From: a virus
Length of the DNA stretch: 43,695 nt
Reading direction: 5' to 3' (one strand)
Virus record (IMG/VR): IMGVR_UViG_3300044946_000049
Location: 1 to 43,695 of that record
The first letter of the stretch is position 1; the number at the start of each line of letters is the position of its first letter. The translations under genes were made by a program, and so were the position numbers. Under the pieces are notes generated by a model that was not told the origin of the DNA, made no database searches, and was given only the letters and a program-made list of their open reading frames with translations. Of this stretch, positions 3,957 through 42,647 are shown in pieces.

Positions 3957-4427
3957 TCAGCTTGTCTCGGCGCACAGGATCAGCGCGGTCCGAGGCCAGA
4001 CGCTCCCCATGCTGTCGGTCGCGGTGAACCTCAGTTGATAATCGGTCCCGGTCACGCCGCCGGTCAGTAGAGCATAGATCGCGCGCCCCTGCACCTCGAC
4101 CGGCTGCGCCGTCCAGTCGGCGTCGGCGGCGACGGGAGGATTGGCGTTGGTGAAGATGGACAGCGCGCCGGACGCGATCCCCACCCCGTAGGGGACGACG
4201 AACGAGAAGTCCATGCCGAAGTAACACAATTCGGTTGACGGATGGTCGGGATGGTAGCGCTTGGCTGGAGCGGCGACGCCGTTCAAGGGCAGCGCCCACG
4301 CCACCCGGTCGCGGCTCATCGGACGCGGCTTGCCGACAAGCGTTTGAGTTGACGGATCGCCAACCGCGCCCGCCGCCGGATCAACGACGACCGTCGTCCA
4401 AGAGTTAGCGGGTCCGAGGGCGGTCAT
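3957..4427 (-). CDS. Fibre adaptor-like structural protein
   Basis: A 156-residue protein whose first gene position, immediately ahead of the tail fibre (1-nt spacing), and beta-rich sequence with WTAQPV and YQLRFTATDS strands fit the phage fibre-tail adaptor proteins, which carry an Ig-like or fibronectin-like fold. The ATG at 4427 was chosen because upstream in-frame codons run into a region holding a hairpin. It is the promoter-proximal gene of the fibre operon and is divergent from the helicase operon. The adaptor role is inferred. Confidence 0.6.
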   Translation of the reverse strand: MTALGPANSWTTVVVDPAAGAVGDPSTQTLVGKPRPMSRDRVAWALPLNGVAAPAKRYHPDHPSTELCYFGMDFSFVVPYGVGIASGALSIFTNANPPVAADADWTAQPVEVQGRAIYALLTGGVTGTDYQLRFTATDSMGSVWPRTALILCAETS

Positions 4428-4477
4428 GTCTATCGCTCGTAGCGTTGCGCGACGCGCAAAATCGAGCCTAACATGAC

Positions 4478-4504
4478 GGAGCCCCGGCGGCGAACCGGGG
4501 CTCC
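4478..4504. terminator. Perfect 10-bp hairpin between divergent operons
   Basis: GGAGCCCCGG (4478-4487) pairs with CCGGGGCTCC (4495-4504) across a 7-nt loop and is followed by AAATTT. The stem looks like an intrinsic terminator, but it lies between two divergently transcribed genes, where termination would not normally be needed. It could be a 5' leader attenuator or a regulatory stem. Confidence 0.5.
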
Positions 4505-4555
4505 AAATTTGGCTGACGAGGCCCACACGAACCAAACTGGAGAGATTGGCCCAAT

Positions 4556-4981
4556 GTGAAAAAGAAACCCAAATCAAGGCTCCCCTTCGTAGGGGACCCC
4601 CATGAGGGGTTCTTCATGCCGCCAGCCTTAGCGGAAATCCCCACACAGTTCAAGCTCGTAGAACACGCCTGTTGCGTGTGTGGAAATCCGTGCGCCCCGT
4701 TCGCCATCGGCTATCCCGAAGCCACGCGATGGTTCTGCCGAAAACACGTAGGAGAGGTCATGCCCGAAGTCACAGAAAACTCAGACCGCGCCAAGCTCAA
4801 CGAGGTCCGGCGGCGCACGGTCAAGGCGGCCAAGCTGTGGCTGGACTTGTACACCGCGTGCGCCAACGGCGACGCCGACGGGGCGCGCTCGATCTGGCCG
4901 CGCATCCGCGACGTGTCAGTCGAAGCAAGCGACATCCTGAAATCGGTCAACGGAGGTCAGGCGGGAGGCCCCCGTGGCTGA
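4556..4981 (+). CDS. Zinc-finger protein preceding the helicase
   Basis: A 141-residue protein with a CCVCG-x2-C then FCRKH cluster (about residues 39-63) that looks like a treble-clef zinc site, followed by a helical C-terminal half. I chose GTG 4556, which has GGAGAG about 11 nt upstream; ATG 4616 and ATG 4760 are alternatives, but 4760 would remove the cysteines. The gene overlaps the helicase start by 8 nt. A helicase loader or partner role is possible from context only. Confidence 0.6.
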   Translation: MKKKPKSRLPFVGDPHEGFFMPPALAEIPTQFKLVEHACCVCGNPCAPFAIGYPEATRWFCRKHVGEVMPEVTENSDRAKLNEVRRRTVKAAKLWLDLYTACANGDADGARSIWPRIRDVSVEASDILKSVNGGQAGGPRG

Positions 4982-6347
4982 TCCGCCGGACGACAACGTT
5001 CACCCGTTCCCGAAGCAGAAACGAGCGCGGAAGACCCCGCCTTCGCCGCCAGCGCAAGCGCCGCACGGGTTGACCGAGCAAGGGGTGATGCGCCTGTTCA
5101 CGGAGGCCAACAAGGACCGCTTCCGCTACAATAACACCAGCAAGACGTGGTACATATGGCGGGAGCATCGCTGGCGCGAAGACACGCGCTCGCGGGCGTT
5201 TGAGGCGGTTCTCGCCTTGTGCCGCTCGCTGGGCGACGGGGCGACGCTGAACAAGGTCCGGTTCGCCCGCGCGGTCGAGGAAGGGGCGCGGGTGCAGCCG
5301 GAGTTCTCCACCGCCGCCGAGGATTGGGACCGCGACCCGTGGCTTCTCGGCACGCCCGGAGGGGTGGTCGATCTGAAGACCGGCGTCCTCCGCGAGGGGA
5401 GGCCGGAGGACCTGATTTCCAAGATCGCCGCCGTCGCCCCAGCGGAGCGCGAGGACTGCCAGCGGTGGCGAAAATTCTTGGACGAAGCGTTTGAGGGCAA
5501 GGCCGACAACATTGCGTTTTTCAAAAGGATGATCGGCTACTTCCTGACCGGGCTGACCAGCGAAGAAAGCCTGTTGTTCATTTGCGGCAAGCCGGGGACC
5601 GGCAAGGGGACGGCGACCAAGACGCTGACCACGATGATGCGCGACTACGCGCTGACGGTGCCGATTTCGATGTTCATGGACAGCGGTTGGCGGGCGCTCG
5701 AATACTATCGCGCCAAGCTGCAAGGCCGCCGCCTGATCGTCGCCGCCGAGCCCGAGAAGGGCTCGATGTGGAACGACGCCTTCGTCAACGAACTGACCGG
5801 CGGCGACCGGGTGAGCGCCCGCCACCCCGCCGGACGCCCGTTCGACTTCGACCCCTCGCACAAGGTCTGCATCCACGGCGAACAGGTCCCCGAGCTTAAA
5901 AGTGTCCACACCGGGCTGAAGCGGCGGCTGCGCATCATGCCGGTCAACCACACCCCGGCGGCTCCCGACACCAACCTTAAAGTCGCTTTGCAAGCCGAAT
6001 ACGGAGGGATTTTGAGGTGGGCGATAAACGGTTGTCTTGATTGGCAAAAAGACGGAATGAGGCCGACCGCCGACGTGACCGCCGCCGTGGACGATTATTT
6101 CGCCAGACAAGACACATTGGCGCGGTGGATTGGCGAGTGCTGCGACCTCTACACCACCTATCGCACACCCCCCGGCCGCCTCCTGCAAAGCTATAACACT
6201 TGGGCTAAGAACAATAACGAAAGGCTCATTCGTTCCAACGACTTGCATGAAATACTGAACAAAAAAGGCTTCCCGACGAAAGCCCTCAACGGGAAAAATT
6301 ACGTGCATGGGATCACCATCGTGCTGGCGAGAGGCGACGGCGATTAG
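4974..6347 (+). CDS. D5/P4-type SF3 replicative helicase
   Basis: A 457-residue protein of the phage/plasmid D5/P4 family. It has a D5_N-like region (about residues 40-190), Walker A GKPGTGKG at 205-212, Walker B LIVAAEPEKG at 254-263, and a sensor region CIHGEQVPELK followed by an arginine-rich RRLRIMP finger near 317-323. It should unwind DNA as a hexamer at the phage origin. Unlike the large P4 alpha-type proteins it has no visible prim-pol domain, so priming must come from elsewhere. GTG 4974 follows GGGAGG by 5 nt. In motif C the usual Asn appears replaced by Glu (GEQVP). Confidence 0.85.
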   Translation: MADPPDDNVHPFPKQKRARKTPPSPPAQAPHGLTEQGVMRLFTEANKDRFRYNNTSKTWYIWREHRWREDTRSRAFEAVLALCRSLGDGATLNKVRFARAVEEGARVQPEFSTAAEDWDRDPWLLGTPGGVVDLKTGVLREGRPEDLISKIAAVAPAEREDCQRWRKFLDEAFEGKADNIAFFKRMIGYFLTGLTSEESLLFICGKPGTGKGTATKTLTTMMRDYALTVPISMFMDSGWRALEYYRAKLQGRRLIVAAEPEKGSMWNDAFVNELTGGDRVSARHPAGRPFDFDPSHKVCIHGEQVPELKSVHTGLKRRLRIMPVNHTPAAPDTNLKVALQAEYGGILRWAINGCLDWQKDGMRPTADVTAAVDDYFARQDTLARWIGECCDLYTTYRTPPGRLLQSYNTWAKNNNERLIRSNDLHEILNKKGFPTKALNGKNYVHGITIVLARGDGD

Positions 6348-8410: not shown

Positions 8411-8597
8411 GGTTGATCCGCTGGACGAGACGACGCACCACGAGCTTGTGGACCTGTTTCGCCGTTCCGATTTCACTGACGCGGTGGCTTTGTTCGGGCG
8501 GTTGGTCAAGCTGGCTTACACGCAGGGACAGATCGACGCTTTCACCACTTCGATCCAGCGGGTGGCGGCGACTTACGAGGATCGGAGCGAGCAATGA
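8400..8597 (+). CDS. Small hypothetical acidic protein
   Basis: A 65-residue helical acidic protein (HHELVDLFRRSDFTDAVALF). It overlaps the membrane gene at its start and the ERF gene at its end by an ATGA junction, so it is translated as part of this operon. No family recognised; association with the annealing protein is only positional. Confidence 0.6.
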   Translation: MDTRVDPLDETTHHELVDLFRRSDFTDAVALFGRLVKLAYTQGQIDAFTTSIQRVAATYEDRSEQ

Positions 8598-9337
8598 CCA
8601 ACGCTGAAATCATCGAGCGCCCCGCGCCAGCGCATGACTTTGGCGAACTGATGATGAGCCTGTTGCGCGATCCTGCGATCCCCGCCGACAAGCTTGAGGT
8701 GGTGATGAAGATGCGCCGCGAGGCGTTGGAGGTTGAGGCCAAGGAAGCCTACCAGCATCATTTCGCGCTGTTCACCGCCGAGATGCCAGCGGTCGAGCGC
8801 GACGGCATGGTGGACCTTGGGTCAAAGGGTAAGTACCCGTTCACCACCTACGAACAGATGGATTTGATCCTCCGGCCCTTGCTCGTCAAGCACGGGTTCA
8901 GCCTCCAATATTGGTCGAGCAACGCGGAGAAGATCGATGTCATCATCGTTCATGGGGCCTTGGCAGGATGGGGATGGCAGCGCGAGAGCGTGTACCCTGT
9001 TCCACCAGACAGTGGCCCCGGTCGGAACGCCTTACAGGCGCGTGGCTCTTCGCAAACGTATGCCAAACGATACATTGCAGATTTACTATGTAATATTGTC
9101 CGCAAAGGGGCGGACAACGATGGTCGAGGCGCTGTTGACGCTTTCATCGACGCGAGGCAAGCAAAAGAGTTGACAGACTTGCTCAAGGCGACCGACACTA
9201 AGCAAGCGGCGTTCCTCAATACGATGCTGACCGATGTCAAGGACATCGCGGACATTCGGGTTCGCGACTTCTCCCGGCTCTTGCTTGCATTGCAGGAACG
9301 GCAGCGGCGGCTGGTGCGAAAGGAATTGTCGAAGTGA
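8594..9337 (+). CDS. ERF-family single-strand annealing protein
   Basis: A 247-residue protein of the ERF recombinase family. The diagnostic region runs from KGKYPFTTYEQM through LILRPLLVKHGFSLQYW to SSQTYAKRYIADLLCNIV, as in P22 Erf-like proteins that anneal single strands and promote genome circularisation or recombination. It starts in an ATGA overlap and is followed, after a coiled-coil gene, by a YqaJ exonuclease: the classic pair of 5'-3' exonuclease plus annealing protein. Confidence 0.85.
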   Translation: MTNAEIIERPAPAHDFGELMMSLLRDPAIPADKLEVVMKMRREALEVEAKEAYQHHFALFTAEMPAVERDGMVDLGSKGKYPFTTYEQMDLILRPLLVKHGFSLQYWSSNAEKIDVIIVHGALAGWGWQRESVYPVPPDSGPGRNALQARGSSQTYAKRYIADLLCNIVRKGADNDGRGAVDAFIDARQAKELTDLLKATDTKQAAFLNTMLTDVKDIADIRVRDFSRLLLALQERQRRLVRKELSK

Positions 9338-18967: not shown

Positions 18968-19146
18968 CGCGCGTTCCTCATGAAAGTGTAGGCGTCGGTT
19001 CCGTTCCACGGGGCGTTGAAGGCCGCCTCGCGGTGGTAGGCGAACTGCCTATCTTCGCTTCGAGTTTTGGCGTCGCTTGGACCGCCCTTTGCGGAGATTG
19101 CGTCGTCGCGCTTTCTTTTGCGCTCGCGAGCCTCTTGCCATGTCAT
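18895..19146 (-). CDS. Small basic hypothetical protein
   Basis: An 83-residue basic protein (TWQEARERKRKRDDAISAKG) with an aromatic centre (EAAFNAPWNGTDAYTFMRNA). Its ATG overlaps the stop of the preceding gene, and its last 23 codons are within the next gene in another frame. No family recognised. Confidence 0.5.
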   Translation of the reverse strand: MTWQEARERKRKRDDAISAKGGPSDAKTRSEDRQFAYHREAAFNAPWNGTDAYTFMRNARWRTKDGRSTSPAAEPRGTRPRLS

Positions 19147-20372: not shown

Positions 20373-20809
20373 AGCTTCACCGTGTGTCTGACAGCGGTCG
20401 GCTGGCCGCCAACTCTGGTCGCCGCCGCCGTGAGGTCAACTTCCGTATCGGACCAAATCCGGTACTCTGCGCATTGTCGCTTGCGCGCCCATTCGACCGC
20501 CGCCCGCATGAGCGTGACTTCCTCCCAAACCGCGCCTTTCTCCGAGGTCAGCAACAGATTGTTGCAGATGCGCAGCCCCGGCAGCCAAGCGTCGGTGATG
20601 ATCATGCAGATGGTGAACGCGCGCTCGGTGCGAGCCGGGAAAAAGATCAGCGGCGATTTGAGGACGTTGTTGCGGAACCACATTTCGGTCGAGAAGGCGT
20701 CGAACGCAATCGAGTAGCGGCGCTGGCCCAAGCCGACGAGCCAAGGCAGATCGTCTTCGGTCAACAGCCTGACGGGGTGCGTTTCAGGCGACTTGGGATC
20801 GTGCAACAT
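20369..20809 (-). CDS. Acetyltransferase-fold-like late protein, copy B
   Basis: A 146-residue paralogue of the protein from 17938-18411 (shared DLPWLVGLGQRRY-type start, TEMWFRN, FFPARTERAF and WARKRQC segments). It overlaps the resolvase gene by 26 nt upstream and the glycine-rich gene by 4 nt downstream. As in copy A, the usual acetyl-CoA pyrophosphate loop is not clear. A structural role in the internal core is as likely as enzymatic acetylation. Confidence 0.5.
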   Translation of the reverse strand: MLHDPKSPETHPVRLLTEDDLPWLVGLGQRRYSIAFDAFSTEMWFRNNVLKSPLIFFPARTERAFTICMIITDAWLPGLRICNNLLLTSEKGAVWEEVTLMRAAVEWARKRQCAEYRIWSDTEVDLTAAATRVGGQPTAVRHTVKL

Positions 20810-21290
20810 GGATGTCGAAGCTCTTCAGGCCCGCGATCCCGATCAAGGCCGCCTCCGCTAGACCGTCGTCGTTCTTGTGGCGGAATAACTCGGCCTTGTC
20901 AGGCCAGCGGGCAATCGCTTGCGCTCGCGCCGCGTCTTTCGCGCCCTCTTTGCCGGGAGCAATGTTGACCGCTCGCTTCCACGAGGCGGGAGTGATCCAG
21001 ATGACCGGGATGGCGGCTCCCGCAAGCACCCCTCTGATACAGCCCTTGCTGTCCCCGAAGGCAAACGCTCCGACAACGCCCTCATTCGGTCGAGGACCGA
21101 CAAGCTCAACAAAGGCTCGGGTGGCGTGGGAGTTGAAGATGATGGAGGCAAGGAGGGGCGCATTGATCGTCCGCCGCTTTTTCGGCCCGTCGTGCAGACA
21201 GGGCATTTCGTGGACGCTAATCAAGTCTCCAGCGTCAGTCAAAATCGCGACGCCGCCGCTGACCCCGATATCAATTCCTAACACGGACAT
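20784..21290 (-). CDS. RuvC-like Holliday junction resolvase
   Basis: A 168-residue RNase H-fold nuclease. MSVLGIDIGVSGG supplies the first Asp (Asp6), FVELV a Glu (Glu62), and HKNDDGLAEAALIG the terminal Asp pair (141-142), the order used by RuvC and phage resolvases. It should cleave branched replication intermediates before packaging. ATG 21290 was preferred because GGTGG lies upstream and the product starts like family members; it overlaps the HNH gene by 20 nt. Confidence 0.85.
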   Translation of the reverse strand: MSVLGIDIGVSGGVAILTDAGDLISVHEMPCLHDGPKKRRTINAPLLASIIFNSHATRAFVELVGPRPNEGVVGAFAFGDSKGCIRGVLAGAAIPVIWITPASWKRAVNIAPGKEGAKDAARAQAIARWPDKAELFRHKNDDGLAEAALIGIAGLKSFDIHVARSQVA

Positions 21291-21720
21291 CATTGCCACC
21301 ATTTCTGTGAACGAAACCGTGACAAGTGGTGCAAAGCCAACGAACATCGAACGGTTTGGAGTAATCGTCGTGGTGGCCGTGAATTTGTCCACCGCCCCCG
21401 CAACATTCACAGGTGTTAGGTTTTATGATTGTCCCTCTGCGAATGGCCATGCGTAATCGGCCTCTTGCTCTAGTCTCGGCAGTGCTGCCCCGCTTGTCCG
21501 GGTGGGTGACGTTGTACAGCCGTGATTTCGCGTTGTCAACCTCTTTGTTTGACGCATGTTTTTCGCGGCGATTTTCTCGGTGTTTGAGTGGATCGAGGCG
21601 ATAACGCGCCCTACTCGCTGCGTTGTTACATTCCTTACAATCAAGCCGTGGCTGTCCATTGCTACGAACGTAAAACTCGGTTTCCGGTTTGTCCTTTCCA
21701 CACTTAACACATACGCTCAT
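21271..21720 (-). CDS. Free-standing HNH endonuclease
   Basis: A 149-residue nuclease. Two N-terminal cysteine pairs (Cys4/Cys7, Cys28/Cys31) form a zinc site; a basic helical linker follows; the C-terminus has CECCG, HGHHDDYSKPFDVRWLC and CHGFVHR, the HNH/zinc fold of homing-type nucleases. ATG 21720 follows GGAGG by 5 nt. Its less GC-rich sequence and single insertion between the arginine-rich peptide genes and the resolvase suggest acquisition as a mobile nuclease gene. Confidence 0.85.
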   Translation of the reverse strand: MSVCVKCGKDKPETEFYVRSNGQPRLDCKECNNAASRARYRLDPLKHRENRREKHASNKEVDNAKSRLYNVTHPDKRGSTAETRARGRLRMAIRRGTIIKPNTCECCGGGGQIHGHHDDYSKPFDVRWLCTTCHGFVHRNGGNDVRVRN

Positions 21721-21761
21721 GGGGTCCTCCATGAGCGCTTGTAACACATTTCAGCTTACAG

Positions 21762-21827
21762 TCAACGGCGACCGCTTCGCCTGACCGGCCCGGTGCGACC
21801 GCCGGGGCGGGGTGAGCGACAAGCCAT
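21762..21827 (-). CDS. Arg-rich mini-protein 6 (21 aa)
   Basis: Starts at an ATG sharing one base with the TGA of the preceding mini-ORF, behind CAGGAGACGG. The 21-residue product (begins ACRSPRPGGRTG, ends RRSGRR) has seven arginines and no acidic residue. Last member of the cassette; the HNH gene starts 42 nt further on. Tiny and unrecognised, so expression is unproven. Confidence 0.5.
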   Translation of the reverse strand: MACRSPRPGGRTGPVRRSGRR

Positions 21828-21868
21828 CACCGTCTCCTGATAGAACGCGCCATGCGTCTGCGTCTCAC
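21827..21868 (-). CDS. Arg-rich mini-protein 5 (13 aa)
   Basis: GTG start overlapping the TGA of mini-protein 4 (GTGA). The product MRRRRMARSIRRR is 8/13 arginine. It may be only a coupling leader between 4 and 6, because its 3' end contains the ribosome site AGGAGACGG of mini-protein 6. Confidence 0.35.
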   Translation of the reverse strand: MRRRRMARSIRRR

Positions 21869-22011
21869 GGGGTTCTCCCGCCTCGACGGCCTCGCCCGGT
21901 GCCTTGGCGATGCCCTCTGTGGCGCTTGATGCGCGTGGTCGGTCGTTTGGTGGGTAGTTTCCCGGCTGGGTCAACGCGAGAGCGTGGCCCAAGGTAAGTT
22001 CCGCGAGCCAT
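21865..22011 (-). CDS. Arg-rich mini-protein 4 (48 aa)
   Basis: Starts at ATG 22011, coupled by TGATG to mini-protein 3, behind an excellent AGGAGATTG ribosome site. Twelve Arg and three Lys in 48 residues with one acidic residue; begins ARGTYLGPRSRVDPAGK and ends GTGRGRRGGRTP, an RG-rich nucleic-acid-binding style. The best-supported member of the cassette. Confidence 0.55.
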   Translation of the reverse strand: MARGTYLGPRSRVDPAGKLPTKRPTTRIKRHRGHRQGTGRGRRGGRTP

Positions 22012-22139
22012 CACAATCTCCTGCCCTTGCGATAGGAGAAGAGCCGGGGGCGAAACGAGGGAAGCCGCCAACTCTTCTGCTTCAACTGGCGCTGCGCGTT
22101 TTGCGTGTTGCGAAGGCCAGTGCGTCCGCCGGTTTTCAC
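22011..22139 (-). CDS. Arg/Lys-rich mini-protein 3 (42 aa)
   Basis: GTG start overlapping the TGA of mini-protein 2 (GTGA) and stop overlapping the ATG of mini-protein 4 (TGATG). Nine Arg and four Lys, no acidic residues; middle KSWRLPSFRPRLFSYRKGRR mixes aromatic and basic residues. Expected to bind nucleic acid or an acidic surface. Confidence 0.5.
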   Translation of the reverse strand: MKTGGRTGLRNTQNAQRQLKQKSWRLPSFRPRLFSYRKGRRL

Positions 22140-22201
22140 CGACGGCGCTTCCGGGCGCGGATGCGACGGGCGCGGCGGGTCTGTCTGAGCCGCTTCGCCA
22201 C
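22136..22201 (-). CDS. Protamine-like mini-protein 2 (21 aa)
   Basis: GTG start 4 nt behind a strong GGAGGG site. Eleven Arg and two Lys in 21 residues (begins AKRLRQTRRARRIRARK, ends in three Arg), no acidic residue. Composition is that of protamines and DNA-condensing capsid peptides. Arg codons of both CGN and AGR types are used. Confidence 0.5.
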   Translation of the reverse strand: MAKRLRQTRRARRIRARKRRR

Positions 22202-22210
22202 GGAACCCTC

Positions 22211-22291
22211 CTACCTCCGGCGACCTCTCCGGCCTCGACGCCGACCGCGCCTGTCCTCAGTGAAGTCGTCCCAATGCGTGCTAGGTCCCAT
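22211..22291 (-). CDS. Arg-rich mini-protein 1 (26 aa)
   Basis: ATG start 8 nt behind GGAG. The first half is acidic-aromatic (GPSTHWDDFTED), the second is ten arginines with glycines (RRGRRRGRRGRRR). The charge-split layout differs from the other five. Stop is 9 nt from the next start. Confidence 0.5.
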   Translation of the reverse strand: MGPSTHWDDFTEDRRGRRRGRRGRRR

Positions 22292-41795: not shown

Positions 41796-42647
41796 ATGCG
41801 ACTAGCGTCAACACTTCAAAACGGCATTACCCTGCAAGCGCCGCGTGGCGAGTGGTTGAGCGAAGACGAAATGAAGGCGCGTTTGCCTTCGATCTTCGCT
41901 GAAGAACCACACACGTCACGCTCGGATCGTTACACCTACGTGTCAACGATGGAAATCTTGCGCGGGCTGGCGAAGGAAGGCTTCAAGCCGACGTTCGCCA
42001 CACAGGCGAAGACACGCAAGGAAGACATGCGAGGGCATACTAAGCATCTCATTCGCTTGCGCCGCGACTTCCAGATAGACAAGCCGGACGTGGCGGAGAT
42101 TGTCATGCTAAACTCGCATGGCGGTCAATCGAGCGCGCAACTTTTCGGCGGCTGGTTCCGGTTCATGTGCATGAACGGAATGGTCGTTGGCGAGACGATT
42201 GACGAGGTTCGCGTACAGCACAAAGGCAACATCGTTGACGACATCATCGAAGGATCGTTCAAGATCGTTGACGATCTGAAAGAGGTTGGCGACAGCGTGA
42301 CCGAATGGAAGCGATTGCAACTGACCGGCCCGGAACAAACCGCGCTGGCGGAAAGCGCCGCAACCGTCCGGTTCAATCTGAAGGAAGGCGAAGCCTCGCC
42401 GGTTCAACCGTCGCAAATGCTGCGTCCCCGTCGCGCTGGCGACGATGGCGCGGACCTTTGGACGACCTTCAATCGCGTGCAGGAAAATAGCTTGCGCGGC
42501 GGATTGCACGGTCGGCGGATTGACGCCAACGGGCGGCGGCGCAACGTGACAACGCGAAACGTTAACGGTATCGATCAAAACGTGTCGCTCAATCGGGCCT
42601 TGTGGACCTTGGCGCAATCGATGGCGGCAATCAAAGCCGCCGCCTAA
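41796..42647 (+). CDS. DUF932 protein
   Basis: A 283-residue protein of the DUF932 family common on plasmids, phages and integrative elements. Recognisable segments: TSRSDRYTYVSTMEILRGLA, TKHLIRLRRDF, VAEIVMLNSHGGQSSAQLFG, GWFRFMCMNGMVVG, and a C-terminal block NVNGIDQNVSLNRALWTLAQ. Its role is not known; anti-defence or replication-linked roles have been proposed for relatives. It has its own operator-linked promoter and GAGGAAA ribosome site and is followed by an RNA hairpin array. Confidence 0.85.
   Translation: MRLASTLQNGITLQAPRGEWLSEDEMKARLPSIFAEEPHTSRSDRYTYVSTMEILRGLAKEGFKPTFATQAKTRKEDMRGHTKHLIRLRRDFQIDKPDVAEIVMLNSHGGQSSAQLFGGWFRFMCMNGMVVGETIDEVRVQHKGNIVDDIIEGSFKIVDDLKEVGDSVTEWKRLQLTGPEQTALAESAATVRFNLKEGEASPVQPSQMLRPRRAGDDGADLWTTFNRVQENSLRGGLHGRRIDANGRRRNVTTRNVNGIDQNVSLNRALWTLAQSMAAIKAAA

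Follow-up and report, generated by a model that had tools for sequence, protein, structure and literature searches.

Tailed phages, the most abundant of all viruses, are believed to do without protamines or histones when they pack their DNA. In P22 and T7, the ejection proteins (gp7/16/20 and gp14-16, respectively) are encoded downstream of the nozzle/hub gene. The T7 proteins gp15 and gp16 bind DNA (PMC8954989), and T4 carries the small proteins IPI, IPII and IPIII with the DNA inside its tailed-phage head (PMC7697877). Another bacterial virus, the microvirus phiX174, has in its virion a tiny basic protein, J, that binds DNA (PMC13386984). In eukaryotic viruses, baculovirus P6.9, a small protein with 40% arginine, condenses the dsDNA genome, and several basic proteins lie on one dsDNA genome in the adenovirus capsid (PMC12159748). 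We found no precedent in the open-access literature for arginine-rich or protamine-like proteins in tailed phages.

Here we analyzed a single IMG/VR virus record of 43,695 bases (the window), which contains a row of arginine-rich mini-ORFs. We group their products with the small basic nucleic-acid-binding viral proteins; by the function we infer for them, P6.9, the adenovirus core, microvirus J and the T4 internal proteins would be the closest.

Layout and composition of the cassette

An earlier sequence-only reading had described six mini-ORFs on the minus strand, coupled by GTGA and TGATG overlaps, and the ORF coordinates and gaps confirmed both their sizes and their coupling.

22291-21762, minus strand: cassette of six mini-ORFs (26, 21, 42, 48, 13 and 21 aa)
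22211..22291, minus strand: ORF1, family A, 26 aa, ATG start, MGPSTHWDDFTEDRRGRRRGRRGRRR
22136..22201, minus strand: ORF2, family B, 21 aa, GTG start, VAKRLRQTRRARRIRARKRRR, AGGAGG Shine-Dalgarno (SD) site
22011..22139, minus strand: ORF3, family C, 42 aa, GTG start, ...TGLRNTQNAQRQLKQKSWRLPSFRPRLFSYRKGRRL, GTGA overlap with ORF2
21865..22011, minus strand: ORF4, family D, 48 aa, ATG start, MARGTYLGPRSRVDPAGKLPTKRPTTRIKRHRGHRQGTGRGRRGGRTP, TGATG overlap with ORF3
21827..21868, minus strand: ORF5, 13 aa, GTG start, VRRRRMARSIRRR
21762..21827, minus strand: ORF6, short form of family F, 21 aa, ATG start, MACRSPRPGGRTGPVRRSGRR

The junctions, in order, are +9, -4, -1, -4 and -1 nt. SD-like sites (4-6 nt) are present as had been proposed, although they precede five of the six starts and not four. 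Dense phage operons typically show start/stop coupling of this regularity, which in itself is no evidence for function. Arginine accounts for 33% of the cassette residues, compared with 5.6% in the other late proteins. Our recount of the 171 residues gave 57 R, 9 K, 4 D and 1 E, in agreement with the 57 arginines and very few acidic residues counted before, and both types of arginine codon are indeed used (44 CGN and 13 AGR). With 5 D/E in all, these small and very arginine-rich products share the features by which P6.9-type proteins are recognized.

Position of the cassette in the genome

22356..23981, minus strand: podovirus tail nozzle/hub gene, 541 aa, upstream of the cassette (AlphaFold and Foldseek)
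21271..21747, minus strand: HNH/endonuclease-type gene between cassette and resolvase (phrog_2340)
20784..21410, minus strand: RuvC-like Holliday junction resolvase (phrog_1770)

The 541-aa upstream protein has no match in Pfam or PHROG. Its AlphaFold (AF2) model, built with an alignment of 51 relatives, reached a pLDDT of 87, and the best PDB matches in Foldseek were Pa223, VP1, GP4, PhiM1, P22 gp10, Sf6 and T7 gp12 (E values from 5e-18 to about 1e-10). The upstream gene, previously called a tail hub, was thus named correctly in substance, since the model matches podovirus tail nozzles of the gp10/gp12 type. Farther upstream on the same strand lie a terminase (PHROG), a weak match to an SU10-type portal and the major head protein. 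Because the nozzle, terminase, portal-like and major head protein genes are all upstream, the cassette lies inside the virion block of a short-tailed phage, with the nozzle on one side.

The large ORFs 3' of the resolvase gave no match. P22 and T7 ejection proteins are large and folded, unlike the cassette mini-proteins, and separate large ORFs of the window further downstream (302, 723 and 676 aa) could take their role. Elsewhere in the window, Pfam matches at 4974-6347 (plus strand), 8594-9337 (plus strand), 41796-42647 (plus strand) and 3957-4577 (minus strand) were to a D5_N primase-helicase type, an ERF recombinase, DUF932 and, weakly and below the cut-off, the GP4 gp77 fibre-tail adaptor.

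Conservation of the cassette in related viruses

Relatives were collected by IMG/VR scans in which the nozzle protein and an alignment of it served as queries; these yielded 80 loci. Mini-ORF chains were read in each locus, and families were sorted by small HMMs with seeds picked by eye. Nearly all of the 80 nozzle relatives with enough downstream sequence contain the cassette in constant order. Family D occurs in 66, C/C2 in 67, and B and F in 60 each of about 76 loci. The order B-C-D-F is constant, while A, B2, E, G and H are optional and are placed either ahead of B or in the intervals C-D and D-F. The median cassette has 6 ORFs and 204 aa with 63 R, 10 K and 6 D/E, and the arginine content reaches 45-51% in families B, B2 and G.

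Each core family has a recognizable pattern: ...TRRARRIRARKRR in B, ...WRLPxWRPRLxSYRKGRRL and variants in C, MARGxxLGPRSRVDPAG... in D (the core LGPRSRVDPAG, also in ORF4, is near-invariant), and ...PRPGGRTGPVR..RR in F, usually with RMPWSDDAWPSDW; the optional B2 reads MARRRMVLVPASRKAARARRRGRRR. The long form of F, found in most relatives, differs from ORF6 by an extra segment of the RMPWSDDAWPSDW type. In D and F, the non-basic motifs are better conserved than the basic tails. The second residue is small (A, P, G, S or T) in about 80% of 358 distinct mini-proteins, which fits Met removal. ORF1 combines a short acidic/aromatic head with a poly-arginine tail and has near-identical copies in six loci (L003, L015, L020, L022, L031 and L073). 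ORF5 is the weakest member of the cassette, with no clear one-to-one homologue. In two close relatives (L003 and L019), a single short F-type ORF corresponds to ORF5 plus ORF6, and in four other loci (L006, L008, L039 and L058) the slot is filled by a short arginine-rich ORF; ORF5 has perhaps split off from F.

When D and F themselves served as queries, they recovered this lineage and 12 further contigs, all 12 with a nozzle gene just upstream. A mobile cassette spread among unrelated viruses was accordingly not seen, as the D and F scans gave only the nozzle-bearing lineage. Bacterial and archaeal genomes gave no match. Against 50,697 phage records, the nozzle, D, B/B2 and family I (see below) gave no match, and family F gave only one short chance-level match (E = 2). 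The cassette representatives searched matched no Pfam or PHROG family at E < 0.1, microvirus J included, and for ten of them there was no meaningful Pfam match, homology to P6.9 or protamine included.

In L056, a chimeric mini-gene joins an A-type acidic head (MNPNLGWLDFTED) to a B2 body (RRRMVLVPASRKAARARRRGRRR), a case of shuffling between cassette members. The cassettes of L046 and L051 have an insertion behind D, a less basic KTSC-like ORF of 67-83 aa (...YWNSNVKG.Y); F follows it in L046, and in L051 it lies where the locus ends.

Arginine-rich mini-genes also occur outside the cassette.

19049..19141, minus strand: seventh arginine-rich mini-gene, family I, 30 aa, MARGSRAQKKARRRNLRKGRSKRRQNSKRR, motif ...ARRRNLRKGRSKRR...
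L150:4758-4919, plus strand, and L152:25752-25912, minus strand: mini-ORF pairs of the Manatee Spring phages, with SD sites

Family I starts 1 nt past the stop of a 409-aa gene, and a related ORF was found in 23-25 loci (pS 0.58, pN 0.10). The two Manatee Spring phages (MW202753 and MW202825) are distant, with about 35% identity in terminase and head protein, and both lack the cassette. Between their portal and head-protein genes lie two 13-aa Lys/Arg-rich mini-ORFs with good SD sites, which are unannotated; the records show opposite-strand ORFs there.

Selection on the reading frames

Pairwise Nei-Gojobori counts gave dN/dS values of 0.07 for A (14 loci), 0.10 for B, 0.12 for B2, 0.13 for C, 0.11 for D and 0.21 for F; the pairs are non-independent and the values therefore descriptive, though the effect is large. 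Third-position changes dominate in the six families, and pN/pS in the +1 and +2 frames ranges from 1.2 to 4.6. Among the 60-67 sequences of B, C, D and F, none has a stop in the sense frame, whereas the other five frames contain stops in some relatives, and most of these frames in many. The antisense frame a1 has a low pN/pS of 0.27-0.40, as expected, since third codon positions coincide. Stops or frameshifts in relatives, with no basic peptide conserved, had been named beforehand as what would speak against the cassette; instead, the frames are kept and are under purifying selection. The cassette ORFs are therefore real genes of conserved order, with the main families under strong purifying selection, and about 80 related uncultured viruses keep them as a row.

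Arginine codons are GC-rich and every ORF is tiny, so short ORFs could in principle arise by chance in a GC-rich, degraded or non-coding stretch. This explanation is extremely improbable for the cassette, in view of the dN/dS range of 0.07-0.21, the 60-67 sequences free of in-frame stops and the preserved gene order. Moreover, the longest chain is six ORFs in the window and at most three in 2000 dinucleotide-preserving shuffles (0/2000 exceeded three), and the same chain scan found no second chain of at least four mini-ORFs elsewhere in the window. On the shuffles and the codon-level selection together, we reject chance ORFs. Genes in antisense or other frames were rejected as well, on account of stops in relatives and pN/pS above 1 in all such frames but a1. 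The idea that the ORFs are fragments of one broken long gene is unsupported, because the frames are separate and have their own starts across relatives, with occasional fusions (L056).

A shared slot for nucleases downstream

In 50 of 60 loci, the ORF that follows family F shares exactly 4 nt with it. By a simple motif search, the nearest downstream nuclease motif belongs to the VRR-NUC-like type in 38 loci, to the RuvC-like type in 20 and to the Hjc/PDDEXK-like type in 7; Pfam found VRR_NUC in representatives, and PDDEXK_15 below its cut-off. One slot after the cassette thus holds non-homologous DNA-processing enzymes across relatives, and this exchange of unrelated nucleases points to a shared need, perhaps the debranching of DNA ahead of packaging. 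The tight overlap with a nuclease gene, which can be of any of three unrelated types, would also suit assembly or packaging factors that stay out of the virion and act on replicating DNA in the cell, with the adjacent Holliday-junction-type nuclease. We consider this role quite unlikely, because the HNH gene breaks the link to the resolvase in the window (it is missing from the cassette/nuclease junction in most relatives) and, to our knowledge, other phages debranch DNA without such proteins.

Possible functions of the mini-proteins

By their chemistry, the cassette proteins almost certainly bind nucleic acid; enzymes or typical membrane peptides would be less basic and richer in hydrophobic residues. 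Their probable role is to cover or package the viral DNA in the manner of sperm protamines. The late position, number, conservation and use of Arg over Lys lead us to favor bulk DNA binding as a multi-part protamine, and it seems about an even chance that this cassette of the late operon, whose arginine-rich mini-proteins are translated separately, acts as a multi-component protamine in an uncultured podovirus lineage. The mini-proteins would be produced alongside the virion proteins, attach to phage DNA through charge and, once bound, neutralize and condense the DNA, or shield it, in the head or on its way in or out. The short non-basic motifs of D (LGPRSRVDPAG) and F (MPWSDDAWPSDW and PRPGGRTGP) look like docking sites and might tether members to capsid or portal parts. 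The sequence-only reading of a protamine-like basic set in the virion block is well supported by the frames, the selection and the fixed order beside the nozzle gene; its head location, DNA condensation and ejection, like our own view that the proteins are in the virion, target DNA rather than RNA and serve condensation, are what we infer.

Tailed phages usually pack bare DNA by a motor with small cations, which counts against a protamine. The amount of charge is a further point. With one set per capsid subunit of an assumed T=7 head (about 415) and a net charge of +61 per set, our own arithmetic gives neutralization of about 29% of 87,000 phosphates; the corresponding protein load of about 8 MDa is large for a 44-kb phage and also counts against a protamine, as does the lack of a recognizable capsid-targeting sequence. 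With about 230 sets, i.e., 16% of the DNA mass, the proportion estimated for T4 internal proteins (PMC7697877), about 16% would be neutralized. Partial condensation or capsid lining is thus more plausible than full protamine packing.

Compared with the described systems, the cassette proteins resemble P6.9 in being small and arginine-rich, with a condensing role that we propose; P6.9 is the phosphorylation-controlled product of one gene in a eukaryotic virus, whereas here several unlike proteins belong to a tailed phage. As we propose for the cassette, the adenovirus core combines several basic proteins with a single dsDNA genome. Adenovirus core proteins are larger and are processed by a protease, the virus is eukaryotic, and we found no homology to the cassette. 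Microvirus J differs in its ssDNA genome, its T=1 capsid and its being a single protein. The T4 internal proteins are far less arginine-rich.

The late position by itself also fits other roles. Internal head proteins ejected with the DNA, like T4 IPI-III or P1 Dar, could shield it from host nucleases or disarm host defence and condense nothing. Gene position and chemistry are equally suitable for such cargo, the unlike members and the variable presence of B2, E, G, H and family I have the look of an arms race or of accessory genes, and heads can hold many internal proteins, as shown by the roughly 1370 subunits (about 18 MDa) of T4 (PMC7697877). However, the core members B, C, D and F are near-universal and highly conserved, unlike typical counter-defence cargo. 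T4 internal proteins have a cleavable N-terminal capsid targeting sequence of about 10 residues; we recognized no capsid-targeting sequence, of the T4 kind or another, in the cassette proteins, whose N-termini showed us no shared signal beyond MAR-type starts. We regard this alternative as unlikely.

Family B (TRRARRIRARKRR) and the F tail (PRPGGRTGP), judged by eye, resemble arginine-rich motifs, so that RNA-binding peptides of the lambda N or Rev/Tat-like kind, acting in late antitermination, translation or RNA packaging, are a further candidate. However, five to nine different arginine-rich products per genome are too many for a regulator, the genes are at the end of the virion block and outside the early region, and a promoter/terminator scan of the cassette region gave nothing above shuffles. 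We consider a role of this kind quite unlikely.

Implications for tailed phages

A bolder proposal, somewhat less likely than not, is that an entire tailed-phage lineage relies, for the packing of its dsDNA, on five to nine protamine-like mini-proteins that form a dedicated and modular set. Whatever their role, a whole conserved operon of genes of less than 60 codons can stay unnoticed, here in about 80 viral contigs and with no PHROG or Pfam family for the tested representatives. A conserved protamine-like multi-gene set would offer a bacterial system in which arginine-rich proteins work alongside a packaging motor. If our proposal is true, the rule that tailed-phage DNA is essentially bare and motor-packed would be broken, and the cassette would be a prokaryotic counterpart to the adenovirus or baculovirus core.
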